This document shows positions 5,570 to 37,645 of a stretch of 64,000 nucleotides of DNA, piece by piece. Source of the stretch: Microcaldota archaeon (lineage in GTDB: Archaea; Micrarchaeota; Micrarchaeia; Micrarchaeales; Micrarchaeaceae); the NCBI GenBank assembly GCA_021816895.1, contig JAKAWW010000001.1, positions 743,067-807,066 of the forward strand, in the 5' to 3' direction. A program made the translations under genes and the position numbers. The stretch's first letter is position 1, and the number at the start of each line of letters is the position of its first letter. The notes beneath the pieces are model-generated. The model was not told the DNA's origin. It made no database searches and saw only the letters and a list, made by a program, of their open reading frames with translations.

Positions 5570-6640
5570 TTATTGGTAGAAGCCATTGGCTACAGCATCG
5601 TCAAGCTCTTCCTTGAGTATTGGCGGTATGTAGCTATACACATTGTCGAACATGCTCTTTGGATCAGGCGTGAACGCTTCGGCCTTTTCCACTGCGGCAT
5701 CAATCTTCGCCTTTTGATCAGCTGCCATCTCTTCCTCAAGCTTGCTGTTCCACAGGCCCTTTGCAACAAGGTATTTGTTAAGCCTGAGCAGCGGGTCCTT
5801 GGCCTTCCACTTTTCCACCTCTTCATCTGGCCTGTACTTGGTAGGGTCATCGGATGTTGTATGCATGCTTAGCCTGTATGTAACGCATTCTATGAGCGAC
5901 GGGCCTTCATTCGCTTTTTCTATAGCGTCTTTTGTGGCCTTGTAGACTGCAAGCACATCGTTTCCATCTACCTGCAATATGTTCTTGAACCCAGCGGCAA
6001 AGCCCTTCTGCGCAAGCGTTTCTGCTGCGCTCTGCCTGCTCCTCGGCACTGAAATGGCCCACTGGTTGTTCTCTATTATCGCAACAAGAGGCAACGCGAA
6101 CGTTCCGCTGAAGTTCAGCGCCTCGTAGAATTCGCCCTCAGATGTTCCCCCATCGCCCACATAAGCAATTACTGCCCTATCCTGCTTCTTGTATTTGAAC
6201 GCATATGCTATGCCGGCAGCATGCGGCATTTGGGTGCCCACAGGCACAGCAACAGTCAGCCCATTTACACTTTCAGGCACTGCGTTGCCTTCCTCTATGC
6301 CGCGCCAGTATATGAAGAACAGATCCAATGGCAGCCCCCTTGCAAGGTACACGCCGTGCTGCCTGAAATTCGGCACAAAGAAATCGTTGCTGCGCATCGC
6401 AAAGGCGCTTCCTATCTGCGTAGCCTCTTCGCCTATGAGGGGTGCATATGTTGCCGCACGCCCCTGCCTCTGCAAGCTGAGCACCTTTGCGTCAAGAGCC
6501 CTGGCAAATGACATGCTTTTGTACATCTCTATAAGCTTTGAATCGTCAATATCGCTTGGCATTAGCGACCGGTCTATATTCCCATTTTCGTCAAGAATCT
6601 GCATGTAGTTTATAGAGCCCTTAAACACTTCCATAATCAT
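5570..6640 (-). CDS. 2-oxoacid dehydrogenase E1 component, alpha subunit
   Basis: A 356-residue thiamine diphosphate-binding E1 alpha subunit. The cofactor motif is complete: GDGGTSEGEF followed about 25 residues later by ENNQWAIS. The phosphorylation-loop-like segment YRLSMHTTSDDPTKYR is also present. ATG at 6640 is preferred over an upstream in-frame ATG at 6667, because GTGGTC stands just before it and the extra residues do not resemble the family. It is the first gene of the E1a-E1b-E2-E3-hydrolase-flavoprotein run. AT-rich DNA at about 6661-6700 would hold the promoter. Together with E2 and E3 it gives the cell a full oxoacid dehydrogenase complex, unusual for a reduced archaeon. Confidence 0.92.
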   Translation of the reverse strand: MIMEVFKGSINYMQILDENGNIDRSLMPSDIDDSKLIEMYKSMSFARALDAKVLSLQRQGRAATYAPLIGEEATQIGSAFAMRSNDFFVPNFRQHGVYLARGLPLDLFFIYWRGIEEGNAVPESVNGLTVAVPVGTQMPHAAGIAYAFKYKKQDRAVIAYVGDGGTSEGEFYEALNFSGTFALPLVAIIENNQWAISVPRSRQSAAETLAQKGFAAGFKNILQVDGNDVLAVYKATKDAIEKANEGPSLIECVTYRLSMHTTSDDPTKYRPDEEVEKWKAKDPLLRLNKYLVAKGLWNSKLEEEMAADQKAKIDAAVEKAEAFTPDPKSMFDNVYSYIPPILKEELDDAVANGFYQ

Positions 6641-6767
6641 TTGACCACAACCCTTATATTGCACCATAATTTATTAATTATTTCTAAAACCACTTGGTAA
6701 AGTAGTTCAATAAGTATTAGCACACATATAAAAATGTGGATTGATGATATGCTTGTGAGGTGTGAGC

Positions 6768-7046
6768 ATGGGATACGTAGAGAGCAATATTGACGAGAAA
6801 ACAATGGACCTTTCAAGGGCGAGGCAGTCGCTCATAGAGGAGCTTCAGGCGCAGATGTGGTATGACGAGCGCATCAGCGCCACAAAGGACGAGAGCCTGA
6901 AGGGAGTTCTTGCGCACAATCGCGACGATGAGAAAGAGCACGCCACTTTGCTCTTGGAATGGCTGAGGAGGCACGACGCTCCGCTGGACAAGGAATTGAA
7001 AGAGATACTTTTCAGCAATAAGGACCTGAAGGAACTTTGGGATTGA
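6768..7046 (+). CDS. Encapsulated-ferritin-like protein (EncFtn family)
   Basis: A 92-residue two-helix protein resembling encapsulated ferritins, which form decamers with iron sites between subunits and oxidise Fe(II). The residues expected for that site occur with exact family spacing: Glu25, Glu55 and His58 (30 and 3 apart, as in Rhodospirillum EncFtn Glu32/Glu62/His65). The motif HNRDDEKEH...LLLEWLRRHD is diagnostic. ATG at 6768 has GAGGTG five bases upstream; an in-frame GTG at 6762 is part of that site. No encapsulin shell gene is in the window. The last residues (FSNKDLKELWD) could be a short targeting tail, but I cannot confirm this. Its stop codon abuts that of speD, read from the other strand. 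Confidence 0.75.
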   Translation: MGYVESNIDEKTMDLSRARQSLIEELQAQMWYDERISATKDESLKGVLAHNRDDEKEHATLLLEWLRRHDAPLDKELKEILFSNKDLKELWD

Positions 7047-7442
7047 TCAGTTTCCCCTGTCGGCCTTGAACACCTTGTAGCTTTTCGGCTTTAGCTTTGC
7101 TAGTATGTATTCTAATGAAGCATCAGGATCGCCATCAACGCCGCAGGTGTATATGTCTACAGTGGCATAGTCGCTTTCCGGCCACGTATGCAAAGCGATA
7201 TGGCTCTCCTCGAGTATCGCTATTATTGATACGCCGCCGTCAAAGCCGTGCATCGGGGAAAACTTCTTTGCGCTCATCTCTATTATGTGAAGCTTTCCAA
7301 TCTTTGCAGCCTCGCCTACGAGCTTCGCCAGCGCGTCCATGTTCGATAGATACCTGCTATCTATCTGGTCCAGGTTCGCATATACGTGCTTGCCTATGAC
7401 CTTGTACACCTGCTTTTCAATCGCAGTGGGCATCGAACTCAT
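7047..7442 (-). CDS. speD: S-adenosylmethionine decarboxylase proenzyme
   Basis: A 131-residue prokaryotic (class 1b) AdoMet decarboxylase, which makes the aminopropyl donor for spermidine. The chain cleaves itself at Glu79-Ser80 in LEESHIALHTWPE to form the pyruvoyl group. Ser80, His85 and Cys100 have the same spacing as the Thermotoga maritima catalytic residues (63, 68, 83). The start at 7442 has GGTG eight bases upstream. Some archaeal paralogues are arginine decarboxylases of the same fold, so substrate assignment rests on overall similarity. It is tail-to-tail with the EncFtn-like gene with no spacer, so both transcripts must read into each other. Confidence 0.9.
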   Translation of the reverse strand: MSSMPTAIEKQVYKVIGKHVYANLDQIDSRYLSNMDALAKLVGEAAKIGKLHIIEMSAKKFSPMHGFDGGVSIIAILEESHIALHTWPESDYATVDIYTCGVDGDPDASLEYILAKLKPKSYKVFKADRGN

Positions 7443-10382: not shown

Positions 10383-11786
10383 TCAGTCTGTGCAGCAGCT
10401 CAGCTTTGACACGTCTTTGTAGAATGACTGCGCAGCCAGTTTCATAGACTCGCTGAGCGTTGGAAATACATGTACGGTATCTATTATGTCATCGATTGTA
10501 AGGCCGAACTTTACGGCCAAGACGCCTTCGTGTATCAGATCTGCGGCGTTGGGAGCGATGATATGCGCCCCAAGTATCTTGTGCGTCTTGTAATCTATCA
10601 CGATCTTCACGGCACCTCTTGTGTCTCCAATTATGCTTGCCTTAGGCACAAGGCTTAGTGGCAATATATTGCATGAGCATTTCAGGCCTCTTCCGTGCGC
10701 TTCCGCGTCAGTTAAGCCCACAGTTGCAACCTCTGGGTCTGTGAATATTGCTTTTGGCACCTCATCCTTGTTTATCTTTGCTTTAGAGACTGTGAAAGCA
10801 TTGCTAGTTGCCACGCTGCCTTCTTTGGCCGCAAGGGTTTCGAGCATCGGCTCTCCGGCGACATCGCCTGCCGCGTATACGTTCTTTATGTTTGTCTCCA
10901 TAAATTCGTTTGTCCAGATGAACCCCTTTTCTAGCTTGAGCCCTATGATTTCATGGCCCAATTTTTCTACATTTGGCTTTCTGCCTGTTGCAAAAAGGAC
11001 CTCTTCTGCTTCAAAGTGCGTGCCATTCGCGGTTTCTATGCGTTTCATGCCTTTGTACTCGCTTATTTTCGAGAGTGCAATATTTGTTTTTATATTTACA
11101 CCTTCGTCTCCCAGGTATCTATGCAAGAGGGACGCTATTTCAGGCTCATGGTCAGGTATTATGGTATTGCTTCGCTGCAGCAGTGTGACTTCAACGCCAA
11201 GCCTTGCGAAGAGCTGTGCAAATTCGAGTCCGAGCGCCCTGCCACCTACCACAATGAGCGAGTGCGGCAGCTTCTTGAGTGAAAGTGCCTCCTCGTTAGT
11301 AAGATACCTTACCTTTTCTATGCCATCAATGTTAGGCACGCTTGCCCTTGCACCAGTTGCAATGAGCACGGTCTTTGCATATACCTCATTTTTTCCGGCT
11401 CTTATAGTGTTGCTGCTAATAAACGAACCAAACTCGTTTATATAGGTAATATTTTCGAGATTTGCCAGAACATTGTCATATTTTTCCGACCTCAGGGCGC
11501 TCACTAGCGCATCTTTTTCTCTTCCTATCTCGGCATAGTCAACATTTCTCAAGCTGTAGTCAGCGCCATCAAACCGCCGCGACTTTAGGTCGTGTATCCA
11601 CTTCCCGACAGTTATCAGCCTCTTGCTTGGAACGCATCCAACGTTTATGCATGTGCCGCCTAGCACCGCCCCGTTAGTCTCGTTTTTGCCTATCATTACA
11701 GTCTTTATGCCTAGCTCGTTAGCTTTTATTGCTGCCGCAAATGCAGCGGAGCCCTGCCCCAATATTGCATAGTCAAATTTCTCTAT
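10383..11786 (-). CDS. merA: Mercuric reductase, apparently with an AUA start
   Basis: A 467-residue NADPH-dependent Hg(II) reductase core. The redox disulfide GGTCINVGCVPSK gives Cys46 and Cys51. The C-terminus ends in KLSCC plus two residues, the vicinal cysteines (464-465) that deliver Hg(II) to the active site of the partner subunit in MerA; ordinary dihydrolipoamide dehydrogenases lack them. No N-terminal NmerA metal-binding domain is present. The first ATG/GTG/TTG in frame (TTG at 11762) would remove the first Rossmann strand. Reading from ATA at 11786 restores EKFDYAILGQGSA. The ATA overlaps the arsR stop as ATAG and follows a GGTGG site. It is the last gene of the mercury operon. Confidence 0.88.
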   Translation of the reverse strand: MEKFDYAILGQGSAAFAAAIKANELGIKTVMIGKNETNGAVLGGTCINVGCVPSKRLITVGKWIHDLKSRRFDGADYSLRNVDYAEIGREKDALVSALRSEKYDNVLANLENITYINEFGSFISSNTIRAGKNEVYAKTVLIATGARASVPNIDGIEKVRYLTNEEALSLKKLPHSLIVVGGRALGLEFAQLFARLGVEVTLLQRSNTIIPDHEPEIASLLHRYLGDEGVNIKTNIALSKISEYKGMKRIETANGTHFEAEEVLFATGRKPNVEKLGHEIIGLKLEKGFIWTNEFMETNIKNVYAAGDVAGEPMLETLAAKEGSVATSNAFTVSKAKINKDEVPKAIFTDPEVATVGLTDAEAHGRGLKCSCNILPLSLVPKASIIGDTRGAVKIVIDYKTHKILGAHIIAPNAADLIHEGVLAVKFGLTIDDIIDTVHVFPTLSESMKLAAQSFYKDVSKLSCCTD

Positions 11787-15346: not shown

Positions 15347-15928
15347 TCATATGCCATAGCGGTAGCGTTTTGCAATCTTTACTAGAGCGGGCATGCTGTT
15401 TATTTCTTTCTGCGCAGGCTTTTTTGCATATGTGCCTGCAGCACGCTTTTTTATGTATGCAATGATTTTTTCCCTTTGAGATGTGCTTGACGCATCTATC
15501 TCATATACTTCGCTGTATGTGTGGCGTGCCTTGGCCCTGTTTCCGCAATAGTCAATAGCCTCTGCTATCACGTTTTCCCTTATTTTTTCCTTGCCGTAAT
15601 CCCTCTTTTCCAGCCTTCGCACAAGTTTTACCGGATCATATCTCAGCACTACTATGATATCGAACTTTACTGAAAGCTCCGGTACCAGATGGCCCACAAT
15701 AAGCATATGCCCTGCAGTGTGGGCTGCTTCTTTCCTGATGGCATTGCTGAGGGGGTGCACTTTTACAACTGCCGCGCCATTTTTATCGATATACGAATAG
15801 AGCTTATGCTTTTTTACAATGTCGTTTACCTCTACAATGCGCATGCTGGCGTGCTTTGCCAGCTCTTTGCTGAAGAAGCTTTTCCCCACACCAGGAGATC
15901 CAGTGATGCCTATTAGGAGTTTCTTTAT
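15347..15928 (-). CDS. AK6/Fap7-like adenylate kinase, apparently with an AUA start
   Basis: A 193-residue P-loop kinase of the archaeal adenylate kinase AK6 group, whose eukaryotic relative Fap7 acts in small-subunit assembly. The P-loop is GSPGVGKS at 10-17. The NMP-binding part includes HPLSNAIRKEA and a segment with GHMLIVGHLVPE, and the lid has RDYGKEKIRENV. The only in-frame GTG (15889) is inside the P-loop and would destroy it. Reading from ATA at 15928 gives KKLLIGITGSPGVGKS, an ideal N-terminus, preceded by GGTTGAT and five bases after the upstream gene's stop region. The basic C-terminal tail (about 160-193) fits RNA or ribosome contact. Confidence 0.85.
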   Translation of the reverse strand: MKKLLIGITGSPGVGKSFFSKELAKHASMRIVEVNDIVKKHKLYSYIDKNGAAVVKVHPLSNAIRKEAAHTAGHMLIVGHLVPELSVKFDIIVVLRYDPVKLVRRLEKRDYGKEKIRENVIAEAIDYCGNRAKARHTYSEVYEIDASSTSQREKIIAYIKKRAAGTYAKKPAQKEINSMPALVKIAKRYRYGI

Positions 15929-32952: not shown

Positions 32953-33687
32953 TTAGCTTCTTGACGTGCCCTTATCTTTGCTTACAAGACTGAGCAAAGC
33001 AGCACGTGTGCTTTCTCTTAGCTTCTGGTAAGCGCTTTCCAGCAAGGCGATCTCCTTTTCGTTGAGACGCTTTATATTCCCGCCCTTGTCGATCGCGACA
33101 ATGTCTATGGGCTCTGCTATGAATTCTGGCGAAAGCCTCAATGTGTCTTTTATGGCTTTAAACACGATGAGCTTTCCTTCTTCTATGCCTATTTCTACGT
33201 CTTCGAACTCCTTTAGTGGCATATATGCGAGATCGCCATAAGAAAGAACAATGAATTTCTCGTCAACGAACCTGCCCTTCAACGAGTTGTCTGCTACCCA
33301 TATGAAGTTTTTGCCCTTTTTGCTGTCCCAGTATGCCATTAATATGTCCAGCACAATGCTGTTCTTTATTTCTGCCCTGCTTTCGATGTTTGCTGAAAGC
33401 CTTCGTTTTATATCATTATAGAGTATGTCCCCTATGCCAGTAAGAAAGCCTTCAAACATTTCGCCAGTGAATTCTGGCTTGCTGCCAAATATGTCTTTTG
33501 CCAGATTTCTTATCTTTTGATTTATCCATACACCGCCAGACATTGCAAAAACATAATTGCCCTCGTCATATATCTTTTTAGCCTTCAATGAGACGTAACT
33601 TGCTTCGCTCCTGAGACTCATTGCAGTATCTGAAGCGATTACCAAGCTGCCGTCATCACATTTAAGGCCTATTACAATAGACACCAA
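32953..33687 (-). CDS. Proteasome beta-like protein (paralogue A)
   Basis: A 244-residue protein with the Ntn-hydrolase fold of proteasome beta subunits. The N-terminus VSIVIGLKCDDGSLVIASDT aligns with the beta-subunit start. Counting back from the conserved DG, Ser3 takes the place of the catalytic Thr1, so the active residue would be serine after loss of two residues, or the protein is inactive. KAKKIYDEGNYVFAMSGG matches the strand with the catalytic lysine. It ends with a charged helix. It follows paralogue B by five bases. Similar two-gene sets of divergent beta-like proteins are not familiar to me. Confidence 0.75.
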   Translation of the reverse strand: MVSIVIGLKCDDGSLVIASDTAMSLRSEASYVSLKAKKIYDEGNYVFAMSGGVWINQKIRNLAKDIFGSKPEFTGEMFEGFLTGIGDILYNDIKRRLSANIESRAEIKNSIVLDILMAYWDSKKGKNFIWVADNSLKGRFVDEKFIVLSYGDLAYMPLKEFEDVEIGIEEGKLIVFKAIKDTLRLSPEFIAEPIDIVAIDKGGNIKRLNEKEIALLESAYQKLRESTRAALLSLVSKDKGTSRS

Positions 33688-33692
33688 AGCAC

Positions 33693-34478
33693 CTAATTTA
33701 CATTCTTGCTCTTTTCAGCGCCTTCACTTCTAAGCATAGAGACGTGCCTTTCAAAAAGCGCCGTTTCTTCACTTACTGAGGTAACATAAGCGCGCTCAAG
33801 CTTTGATAGGTCTTCGCTGCTAAGCCGCTTTATGCCTTCCTTGTCCATGACAACCATGCTTATGGGCTCCATGAGCTTTCCGGGCGAAACCTTCATCGTA
33901 TCCTTTATGACCTTGTATGCTACAAAGCTGCCTACTTTTGTGTCAAGCTTCCCTTCTGCTTGGCCGATTGAGCTGAGTTTGCTCAGGTAAGCATTTGCAA
34001 TATCCTCACCCTCGCCTATGGCAAGCATGCTCAATCCATTTGTGTCGCTTTTGAAGGTATTAAGCAGGGCGTCGTTCGATATGACTATTACTTCGTTGCC
34101 TTCTTTCTCGTCATGCCTTGCCATGATCAGAGTCACATACAGGGCCTCTTGTATGCTTTCATCGTCTTCTTCTGAATCCAAGCCCCTTGAAATCTTCATT
34201 CTTTTTATAAAGTCATGCTTGGCCTCTGCAAACTCGTCCAATATGTCGCTCCTTATCTTATCTATCTCCTTCTGCTTTGCCACCTTTTTGGAGATGTCCT
34301 TGTAAAGCTGCTCTATAAGGCTGTAATCTCCAACGCCAGAAAACAAGAATTGGTTATTCATGCTTATTATCTTCTCTCCATTTACCATTATGCCCCTGCC
34401 AGAGTAATTGATTTCAAAGCCGCTGTCTGCGGCCATCACTATTCCATCGCTGCATGACACGTATACTACAAGCGTTAT
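33693..34478 (-). CDS. Proteasome beta-like protein (paralogue B), apparently with an AUA start
   Basis: A 261-residue proteasome-like Ntn hydrolase. The first ATG/GTG/TTG in frame is GTG at 34460, which would remove the first strand. Reading from ATA at 34478 gives initiator Met then TLVVYVSCSDGIVMAADSG, placing a threonine exactly at the catalytic Thr1 and Asp17 in AAD at the right distance. GGTGAG at 34482-34487 is an ideal ribosome binding site for this ATA. A lysine of NGEKIISM fits Lys33 with a small insertion. A charged central helix (about 65-115) is longer than in standard beta subunits. It heads the pair with paralogue A. Confidence 0.75.
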   Translation of the reverse strand: MTLVVYVSCSDGIVMAADSGFEINYSGRGIMVNGEKIISMNNQFLFSGVGDYSLIEQLYKDISKKVAKQKEIDKIRSDILDEFAEAKHDFIKRMKISRGLDSEEDDESIQEALYVTLIMARHDEKEGNEVIVISNDALLNTFKSDTNGLSMLAIGEGEDIANAYLSKLSSIGQAEGKLDTKVGSFVAYKVIKDTMKVSPGKLMEPISMVVMDKEGIKRLSSEDLSKLERAYVTSVSEETALFERHVSMLRSEGAEKSKNVN

Positions 34479-34595
34479 GCGCTCACCTATCTGGTTTGGT
34501 AGATAAAAACTATAAATGTTAACTTAGTTATAGCTTAGAGGCTAAGTCGCAATGCCATGAGAGAAACGGCATTTGCGAACAGGGATACAGCAAGC

Positions 34596-34720: not shown

Positions 34721-35801
34721 TGCAGCGATTCTCGCAATTGCGATTGCGACGACTCCAGTCGATGCTGCTGGAGGGCACTGCTATCAGATTTCGACAGCCA
34801 TGCAAGTCTGCTCAGCCACCTGGCTGGGCGGCGTACGGCTCAGTAACGCGTGGTCAATCTAATGTAAGGAAGAGGATAACCTCGGGAAACTGAGGCTAAT
34901 ACACTATAGGCTAAGGCATCTGGAAGGAGCTTTAGCTTAAAAGGTGGCGAATTGGAGCATTACCGCCTTACAATGGGACTGCGTCGGATCAGGCAGATGG
35001 CGGGGTAACGGCCCACCATACCAATAACCCGTAGGGGATGTGGGAGCATGAGCCCCGAGAAGGGCACTGAGACAAGGGCCCTAGCGCTACGGCGTGCAGC
35101 AGGCGCGCAAACTCCACAATGCGCGAAAGCGTGATGGGGGAAATCTGAGTGGTTCACTTCGGTGAACCTTTTGCCAAGTTTAGCAAGCTTGGCGAATAAG
35201 TGCTGGGCAAGACCGGTGGCAGCCGCCACGGTAATACCGGCAGCACAAGCGGTGCTCACGATTATTGGGCTTAAAGCGCTCGTAGCTGGCTGATGCCGTC
35301 TCATGTGAAATATTGGCGCTCAACGTCAATGCGTGCATGAGATACCCATTAGCTAGGGAGCGGGTGAGGTCAAGAGTACTTATGGGGGAGGGGTAAAATC
35401 CTATAATCCTATAAGGACTAACAGTGGCGAAGGCGCTTGACCAGAACGCATCCGACAGTGAGGAGCGAAGGCTAGGAGAACGAATCGGATTAGATACCCG
35501 AGTAGCCCTAGCAGTAAATTATGCAGACTCTGGTGTTGCATACATCACGAATGTATGCAGTACCGTAGCGTAAGTGTTAAGTCTGCCGCCTGGGGAGTAC
35601 GGCCGCAAGGTTGAAACTTAAAGCAATTGGCGGGGGAGCACCCAAGGGGTGGATGCTGCGGTTTAATTGAATCCAACGTCGGGAATATTACCAGAAGCGA
35701 CGGCAGGATGAAGGTCAGACTAAAGATCTTACCTGACGAGCCGAGAGGTAGTGCATGGCGACCGTCAGCTCGTGGTGTGAACTGTCCGGTTAAGTCCGGT
35801 A

Positions 35802-36333
35802 AGCTGGTGAGTGTGATTTCATGTCAAAAAAAATTCCAATGAATCCAGATACAAGCTACATGCTTGGCCTATTCCATTGCTCCGATATTGATAAGGGTAT
35901 AGGGATAGAAGCGAAGAATGAAAGGCTAATAGAGAGGTTTGTTGCCATAGCCGTAAACGACTTGGCGATAAAGCCAGAAAGCATAACAATAGAGAGCACA
36001 GGAGAGGATAAATTGGTGCACGCGCATTTCCACAATGCGAAGTTGCGAAAGCTTCTCCAGAAGGCTCTTGAAGAGAGGGAGCACATATTCAAGTACAGGA
36101 ACGAGTATTCAGCTAGCTACTTTGCAGCACTTTATGACCGCTGCGGCGGCATAGGCAGAAGCGGCCTGTACATAAGGCATTTGGATGTATTAGATGAAGT
36201 GCTCCTTGAAAGGCTTGGCTTTTACATAAGCTCTACTAAGAAAGCCTGCTATATACGGAACGGCAAGGAGTTCCTTGCTTTCATAAGCAAGTACAGCGTT
36301 AAGTGATGCTTACGCACATTCACCAGCCCGGAA
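35802..36333 (+). other. 16S rRNA intron 1 (archaeal BHB intron)
   Basis: A 532-base insertion near E. coli position 1101/1102. Helix CCGG (35796-35799) pairs with CCGG (36328-36331). The bulges are UAA (35800-35802) and AAA (36332-36334). The inner helix GCTGGTGAGTGTG pairs with CACATTCACCAGC. Cutting after the second base of each bulge joins GTCCGGTA to ACGAGCG, giving the archaeal consensus. It encodes a LAGLIDADG-like protein. Confidence 0.92.
35821..36306 (+). CDS. LAGLIDADG-like intron protein with altered catalytic positions
   Basis: A 161-residue protein filling intron 1, of the two-motif LAGLIDADG homing endonuclease type. Motif 1 is SYMLGLFHCSD (about 12-22) and motif 2 is SYFAALYDRCGG (about 98-109), 85 residues apart. 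At the eighth position of each motif, normally the metal-binding Asp or Glu, there is Ser (motif 1) and Cys (motif 2), so DNA cleavage is probably lost. It may persist as an RNA-binding or maturase-like protein, or be decaying. The start ATG has GGTGA about 10 bases upstream, inside the intron helix, so folding of the BHB would hide the ribosome binding site. Confidence 0.8.
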   Translation: MSKKIPMNPDTSYMLGLFHCSDIDKGIGIEAKNERLIERFVAIAVNDLAIKPESITIESTGEDKLVHAHFHNAKLRKLLQKALEEREHIFKYRNEYSASYFAALYDRCGGIGRSGLYIRHLDVLDEVLLERLGFYISSTKKACYIRNGKEFLAFISKYSVK

Positions 36334-36603
36334 ACGAGCGAGACCTTTGCTGACAGTTGCTAGCAGCTTAGAGATAGGCTGCGCACTCTGTCGGGACCGC
36401 CTCTGTTTAAAGAGGAGGAAGGAAAGGGCGACGATACGTCAGTATGCTCTGAATCTTCTGGGCTACACGCGGCATACAAAGGTTGGCACAATGAGATGCA
36501 ATGCCGAGAGGCAAAGCAAATCCCCTAAATCCAACCTAGGTTCGGATTGAGGGTTGAAACTCACCCTCATGAAGCTGGAATCCCTAGTAATCGCTTGTCA
36601 CCA

Positions 36604-37446
36604 AACTGTGACGAGCCGAAAGGTATATATTAATCACCGGTATTACATTAGCGGTGACTATATACCAAACAACCCTTTCGCAACCCTCTATGAAGAAGTA
36701 ATGCAGGCACAGCATACATCAGACTATTTTGAACCAGAAGTGCTCGAAAACTATCCAAGAAGATTGCTTATATTCAGACTGGCCCTTAATATGGACCAGC
36801 GGAAATTGGCAAGAAAATTGGGAGTGAGCCAGGGCACTATTTGGGCGATAGAATCGGGATACAAAAAGCAAATCAAGACCAAGACAGCACTAAAAATACT
36901 CAATCTAATGGCTGCAAACAATATAAGAATCCCAGATTATCAAACCTTGCTTAATAGATATTCAAATATTGCAGAAAGAGGAAAGTTCCACGGAGAATAT
37001 GCAAGGAGAATGGCAAATAAGGCAGTCTCATTAGGAAGTGGGATCAAAAGCGCCATTCTTAAGAAACCAACAGCACAAGAAGCTATTTTATTGAAAGAAC
37101 TAACTAAACAAGGGATAGCATTTCAGTTCCATGGCGTTATTGTAACACCTAGGAAGTTTGTAGTAGATTTTGTATTTCCATCGGATAAATCGCCAAAGGT
37201 CGTCATTGAAATGAAAGATTTAAAATCAAATTACAGAAAAAGAATGCAAGCGATAGATTTAGCTTATAGGGCACTTAAGATGCACCAAAGTCATCCGAAT
37301 CTTAAACTGATTGCAGTTGTCGATGGTACACTACAAGATGACGCATTAGGGATACTTAAAGATGAATATGATAAAGTCCTGCAAAATCCTTCTTCTAGAG
37401 AGGTTGTTAAAGTCGTGAAAGGTTTGATCGGTTCCACAGTGTGAAA
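36604..37446 (+). other. 16S rRNA intron 2 (archaeal BHB intron)
   Basis: An 843-base insertion near E. coli position 1363/1364. The outer helix CGCTTG/CGAGCG is continued by helix UCAC (36598-36601) with GUGA (37441-37444). The bulges are CAA (36602-36604) and AAU (37445-37447), and the inner helix is ACTGTG/CACAGT. Splicing gives CGCTTGTCACCA joined to TCGAGCGG, a normal helix-43 hairpin of the same length as in E. coli. It encodes a nuclease-like protein. Confidence 0.92.
36701..37444 (+). CDS. Intron-encoded HTH + PD-(D/E)XK nuclease, candidate homing endonuclease
   Basis: A 247-residue protein inside intron 2. An XRE-type helix-turn-helix (about 22-60, MDQRKLARKLGVSQGTIWAI) is followed by a linker and a Vsr/DUF559-like nuclease domain (about 122-225): Glu127 in a helix (TAQEAILLKEL), Asp156 in RKFVVDFVFP and Glu170-x-Lys172 in KVVIEMKD. 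The set E...D...ExK is a complete PD-(D/E)XK site. ATG at 36701 is chosen; the open frame begins upstream in exon 2 at 36554, which is rRNA, and in-frame ATT codons at 36629 and 36647 are other options. The coding DNA is more AT-rich than the flanking rRNA. The stop overlaps the 3' BHB. Confidence 0.8.
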   Translation: MQAQHTSDYFEPEVLENYPRRLLIFRLALNMDQRKLARKLGVSQGTIWAIESGYKKQIKTKTALKILNLMAANNIRIPDYQTLLNRYSNIAERGKFHGEYARRMANKAVSLGSGIKSAILKKPTAQEAILLKELTKQGIAFQFHGVIVTPRKFVVDFVFPSDKSPKVVIEMKDLKSNYRKRMQAIDLAYRALKMHQSHPNLKLIAVVDGTLQDDALGILKDEYDKVLQNPSSREVVKVVKGLIGSTV

Positions 37447-37451
37447 TCGAG

Positions 37452-37486
<35 letters not shown>

Positions 37487-37645
37487 TACCAAGTCACCCA
37501 AGCGGGGTCCTAGCGAGGCAGTATCCGTAAGGATGCTTTCGAGTTAGGGTTCTGTGAGGAGGGCTAAGGTATAACAAGGTATCCGTAGGGGAACCTGCGG
37601 ATAGATCACCTCGAAAATTAGTGTGCACATGGCATGATCCTGCAT

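Follow-up and report, generated by a model that had tools for sequence, protein, structure and literature searches.

On the minus strand of the window (the whole stretch of 64,000 nucleotides that we analysed, belonging to the genome that we call G000) lies a gene for a proteasome-like protein whose most plausible start codon is an ATA. It stands in tandem with a paralog, the one being of a T-type and the other of an S-type (32953-33684), and the pair is likewise in tandem in the related genome G014 (L011). Divergent from it lies the 16S rRNA gene (window 34752-37613, plus strand), which is split by two or more insertions that contain open reading frames (35821-36306 and 36554-37444), the first of which looks like a homing endonuclease. 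The features of the tandem pair are the following:

33693..34478, minus strand: proteasome-like N-terminal nucleophile protein, 261 aa including the initiator Met
34483..34488, minus strand: Shine-Dalgarno (SD) sequence AGGTGA, which pairs with the 16S 3' end
34476..34478, minus strand: predicted ATA start codon, with ATG at the same codon in the ortholog L005 and the SD at modal spacing
34473..34475, minus strand: ACG, encoding Thr1, the residue predicted to act as catalytic nucleophile; Thr or Ser in 8/8 family members, right behind the start codon
34458..34460, minus strand: GTG, the first canonical start, rejected; a start here would cost the protein its first strand and, with it, the nucleophile
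32953..33684, minus strand: S-type tandem paralog, with a GTG start (or TTG 33687) directly before Ser1; 27% identity, E=1e-18

The frame of the proteasome-like gene is open from 34523, below an upstream stop (TAA, 34526-34524 on the minus strand), down to its own stop at 33693, and no ATG, GTG or TTG occurs in it ahead of GTG 34460. After the TAA the leader reads GTT AAC ATT TAT AGT TTT TAT CTA CCA AAC CAG ATA GGT GAG CGC, and continues with ATA (34478) ACG CTT GTA GTA TAC GTG (34460). The preliminary description had singled out this ATA, six codons upstream of the first GTG, as a start with an SD at ideal distance, and this is what we find: AGGTGA (34488-34483) stands at a spacing of 4 nt from the ATA, which is the mode for ATG starts in G000 (62 of 494 first ATGs with an SD; next best spacing, 14). 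The chance expectation, given by the ATA codons inside genes that have an SD match of at least 5 at spacing 4, is 39/11,151 (0.35%). We take AGGTGA for a real SD with an anti-SD partner because the 16S 3' end, encoded in the same window, reads AUCACCUC.

A close ortholog of the gene is present in G014 only, among 60 relatives (L005, 53% identity). It reads GGT GGG TGC ATG ACG CTT GTA GTG TAT where G000 has GGT GAG CGC ATA ACG CTT GTA, so that the ATG of the ortholog falls exactly on ATA 34478, which is independent evidence for the predicted start. Initiation at GTG 34460 we reject, as it would remove the first strand together with the nucleophile. AUA 34478 is the likely start, and from there the protein would expose a Thr of the catalytic type.

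Family, fold and predicted active site

The start contexts of the homologs reveal the rule of the family, a start codon followed by Thr or Ser, with the start immediately before this residue in 7/7 homologs. More distant members begin with ATG ACC, GTG ACT or ATG ACA, and Ser-type members with GTG TCT or TTG TCT (the tandem paralog and the gene corresponding to it in G014) or TTG TCC (a further paralog in G000). The Thr that had been proposed to occupy, as second residue, the place of proteasome Thr1 does align with the nucleophile site in every homolog. D17, K35 and G49 are invariant in our alignment of eight family members (A1), in which position 1 is Thr or Ser, and we take these four positions to correspond to the proteasome nucleophile, D17, K33 and G47. 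The protein has, in other words, an N-terminal Thr with equivalents of D17 and K33 (T1, D17, K35), a constellation that requires the AUA start.

When the profile of the family alignment was compared with the PDB it matched proteasome subunits (E 1.3e-8), and the AlphaFold model (pLDDT 81, pTM 0.81) matched proteasome subunits by fold as well (E 7.6e-11, TM-score mostly 0.5-0.7). The predicted fold is that of a proteasome subunit, an Ntn-hydrolase sandwich. By itself the protein misses the gathering score of Pfam PF00227 (17.0 bits vs 22.4), and the profile is matched by 6/8 family members, with a best E of 5.9e-10. Canonical proteasome alpha and beta genes (L002, L001) are found elsewhere in the genome, in addition to the tandem pair.

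Predicted AUA starts across the genome and its relatives

Two other genes of the window had been put forward as AUA starts, and both are real cases:

10383..11786, minus strand: merA (mercury(II) reductase); ATA 11786 follows immediately on a TAA, with AGGTG at 11796-11792, spacing 4
15347..15928, minus strand: AK6-like kinase with a predicted ATA 15928 start; NF003012 at E=1e-25, below the curated cut-off

The merA product scores above the cut-off of TIGR02053 (NCBIfam MerA), position 1 of the profile lying at residue 3 after the ATA, and in the 24/60 relatives with a homolog the alignment begins mostly one or two residues behind it. The first canonical codon of the AK6-like kinase is a GTG within the P-loop GSPGVGKS, downstream of ATA 15928, and homologs in 57/60 relatives span the part upstream of that GTG.

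Beyond the window, we called genes in 833 kb of the 929 kb of G000 and in 780 kb of Mancarchaeum acidiphilum Mia14 (G008), some 1.6 Mb with 1,459 genes, and took smaller samples from G014, G024, G030 (200 kb) and G039 (200 kb). The Mia14 genome is circular, measures 952,257 bp and comes from a culture (PMC5498576); Mia14 and Micrarchaeum harzensis have been grown in co-culture (PMC5498576, PMC8975820). In G000 and Mia14 the SDs of first ATGs are sharply concentrated at spacing 4, and those of ATA codons that precede the first standard start are concentrated there too. An SD at 4 nt accompanies 14/571 upstream ATA codons versus 38/9,883 other codons, near-cognates being set apart (6.4-fold, Fisher p=4.6e-7), and versus 122/22,995 ATA codons inside genes (Fisher p=5.8e-6). 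ATA ranks first among all codons for this association (next codon, p=0.046), and there is no signal for ATT, ATC and CTG upstream of the first canonical start, which together have an SD at 4 nt in 1/721 cases in the two genomes. The enrichment at ATA is significant in each genome separately (p 0.0006 in G000 and 0.0003 in Mia14). Spacing 4 was chosen as the mode of ATG starts, but the choice was made once initial results were in from a wider window of 3-5, which for G000 alone gives a weaker result (p=0.055) than spacing 4. If a strong SD were as frequent among AUA genes as among ATG genes, about 90 AUA starts would be implied in the 1,459 genes; since AUA may rely on the SD more heavily, this number is a rough upper estimate.

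Individual genes were sought through homology. The lists of homology extensions were limited to called genes, the first ones having been swamped by shadow ORFs, and the mapping of ortholog ATGs onto the query was dominated by offsets of 1-3 codons; only exact matches count as evidence. Such an exact match of an ortholog ATG with the ATA codon is seen in the NMD3-family, CysRS and nucleotidyltransferase genes of Mia14 and in an EamA transporter gene of G000. PheT of Mia14 fills TIGR00471 from position 3 only with an ATA start. In G024, uL29 has an ATA at the expected place and no canonical start for 37 codons, and a cis-prenyltransferase-like frame begins with ATA, a canonical start being absent for 142 codons. 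For several conserved genes canonical starts are, judging from the sequence, impossible. No SD-supported AUA case was seen in G030 or G039 (200 kb each). The preliminary description had suggested that AUA is a regular start in this organism, and the genome-wide search for genes that need ATA did find further cases in G000 and its relatives. That AUA is a recurrent start codon in G000 and its family is well supported by these comparisons; it is, however, used by a minority of genes, probably no more than a few per cent of them.

On the minus strand of L143 in G039, the frame 6425-7208 reads AAAGGTGATAGA ATC ATC GAC and aligns to MIDEASLL of G000; it is a candidate AUC start from a member of the neighbouring family. 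Separately, three genomes (L021:4358, L075:1126 and L064:1398, all on the plus strand) share the peptide Q(G/D)L(Y/H)L..(C/R)D, in frame and immediately above the first ATG; it would be a leader under conservation or a further start that has gone unrecognised.

Proposed initiation at AUA and alternative explanations

A special initiator tRNA had been envisaged as a basis of AUA starts, and the inspection of its anticodon does not bear this out. The only initiator-type tRNA found in G000 (L164) has nothing unusual: its anticodon is CAU, its end pair A1-U72, and its anticodon stem is GC-rich as in ordinary archaeal initiators; the elongator tRNA-Met is separate from it. The genome also encodes aIF1 and a pair of M24 peptidases. 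Among Ile codons AUA is the most frequent (4,867/89,944 codons), and a tRNA-Ile with anticodon UAU is present (L156, G000:C1:90559-90633), by which AUA sense codons are predicted to be read; no tRNA-Ile2(CAU) was among the 30 tRNAs read in G000. We considered a reassignment of AUA to Met and rejected it, given this dedicated tRNA-Ile(UAU) and the role of AUA as main codon of the Ile box.

It is very probable, in our judgement, that the proteasome-like gene is translated from AUA 34478 by the CAU initiator, that the Met is removed and Thr1 exposed, and that the same AUA initiation recurs in the family (Micrarchaeota, with Mia14). The SD duplex at optimal distance would place the ordinary initiator tRNA-Met(CAU) on AUA, and its anticodon would accept the codon by a third-position C.A pair and insert methionine. 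A methionine aminopeptidase, which we assume one of the M24 proteins to be, would then take off the Met before the Thr, and Thr1 would thus become the nucleophile of a proteasome-like hydrolase that has no propeptide. Methionine initiation, methionine removal, enzyme activity and C.A pairing are the parts of this explanation that we infer.

A different cause for AUA initiation would be the altered decoding site of the 16S rRNA (1404-1406/1495-1497), encoded in the window:

37475..37491, plus strand: 16S decoding strand 1392-1408, GCACACACCGCCUACCA (1404U, 1405A, 1406C)
37566..37573, plus strand: 16S decoding strand 1492-1499, AAGGUAUA (1495G, 1496U, 1497A), compensating

The change, to which the preliminary description had tentatively linked the AUA starts, is real and compensated: C1404-G1497 has become U-A, G1405-C1496 A-U and U1406.U1495 C-G. 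The helix presumably adjoins the P site, and it is altered in G000 and Mia14, which are the two genomes with a significant AUA signal. The altered helix does not track AUA starts, however. G024 retains C1404-G1497 and G1405-C1496 and yet has AUA-start genes, so the altered helix is not required for them, and G030 has the same helix as G000, yet no SD-supported case in its 200 kb. C1400U is found in Mia14 and G024 and not in G000, and no single rRNA change follows the predicted use of AUA among the genomes sampled. We consider it unlikely that the decoding site is what permits AUA initiation. Position 1400 of the 16S rRNA, which we take to lie under the P-site wobble pair, is a U in four family members: L197 (G008), L195 (G024), L202 (G032) and L210 (G017).

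As for the start itself, GTG 34460 is the first standard start of the gene, and its use would yield a truncated, non-catalytic proteasome-like subunit, the residues upstream being a fossil left after the loss of an ATG start to ATA. The paralog could supply the activity lost in this way, and a single ortholog with ATG could equally mean that the start was lost in G000 by mutation. But this GTG lies within strand 1, 22 nt from the SD, and the residues from ATA to GTG are identical in the G014 ortholog (TLVVYV). The SD retained at modal spacing and the retention of D17 and K35 argue against it too, as does the genome-wide association of AUA with the SD, which leaves this reading with little to recommend it. 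It is very improbable that another non-canonical codon of the leader (ATA 34490 or ATT 34517) starts the protein and that a propeptide is then cleaved off autocatalytically to free the Thr, as happens in 20S beta subunits: the frame is indeed open to 34523 and contains ATA 34490, but neither codon has an SD (longest match 1 nt at spacings 3-6), and all homologs start right before the nucleophile. That ATA 34478 should really be an ATG, misread in sequencing or assembly, is hardly credible: the ortholog does differ by this one base, but the enrichment is specific to ATA and seen in many genes of two independently sequenced genomes.

Significance and comparison with known systems

A broader proposal, which to us seems as apt to prove right as wrong, gives AUA the rank of a permanent fourth start codon throughout the Micrarchaeum/Mancarchaeum family, where several per cent of genes would begin with it, among them essential ones (PheT, uL29 and an NMD3-family gene), and where the ordinary CAU initiator would read it. 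A protonated A.C wobble in an acidophile with a slightly acidic cytoplasm could perhaps help, although this is speculation, as could a loosened P-site rRNA (C1400U in Mia14 and G024, h44 changes in G000). Archaeal annotation treats AUG, GUG and UUG as the universal start codons. If AUA starts are true, gene finders limited to ATG/GTG/TTG would mis-start or miss AUA genes, and annotated N-termini would change; in the proteasome-like protein, the choice of start decides whether the catalytic residue is present. A family in which AUA serves as an extra start and still is the principal codon for isoleucine would lend itself naturally to studies of initiation fidelity. In the open-licence literature we found nothing on point about AUA/ATA start codons in archaea, Micrarchaeota or DPANN, and an earlier notice is possible.

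The proteasome-like protein has its predicted fold and its Thr1/D17/K33 constellation in common with the 20S proteasome beta subunit and HslV. HslV has a start codon followed by Thr, without a propeptide, and this trait would be shared too. In contrast to both, the protein falls below the PF00227 cut-off and forms a tandem of T-type and S-type genes besides the usual alpha and beta genes.

Among bacterial genes with rare starts, infC begins at AUU. Streptomyces sigR starts at GTC (PMC5472188). Such bacterial starts resemble the archaeal AUA in that initiator tRNA-Met reads a near-cognate codon, in most cases behind a good SD; they are, however, single regulated genes, whereas the archaeal AUA recurs over housekeeping genes and does so without ATT, ATC or CTG. 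In animal mitochondria, AUA inside genes also stands for Met. AUA starts occur there (e.g. PMC7748720), and the AUA initiator is common to both systems, but in G000 internal AUA would stay Ile, with its own tRNA-Ile(UAU).
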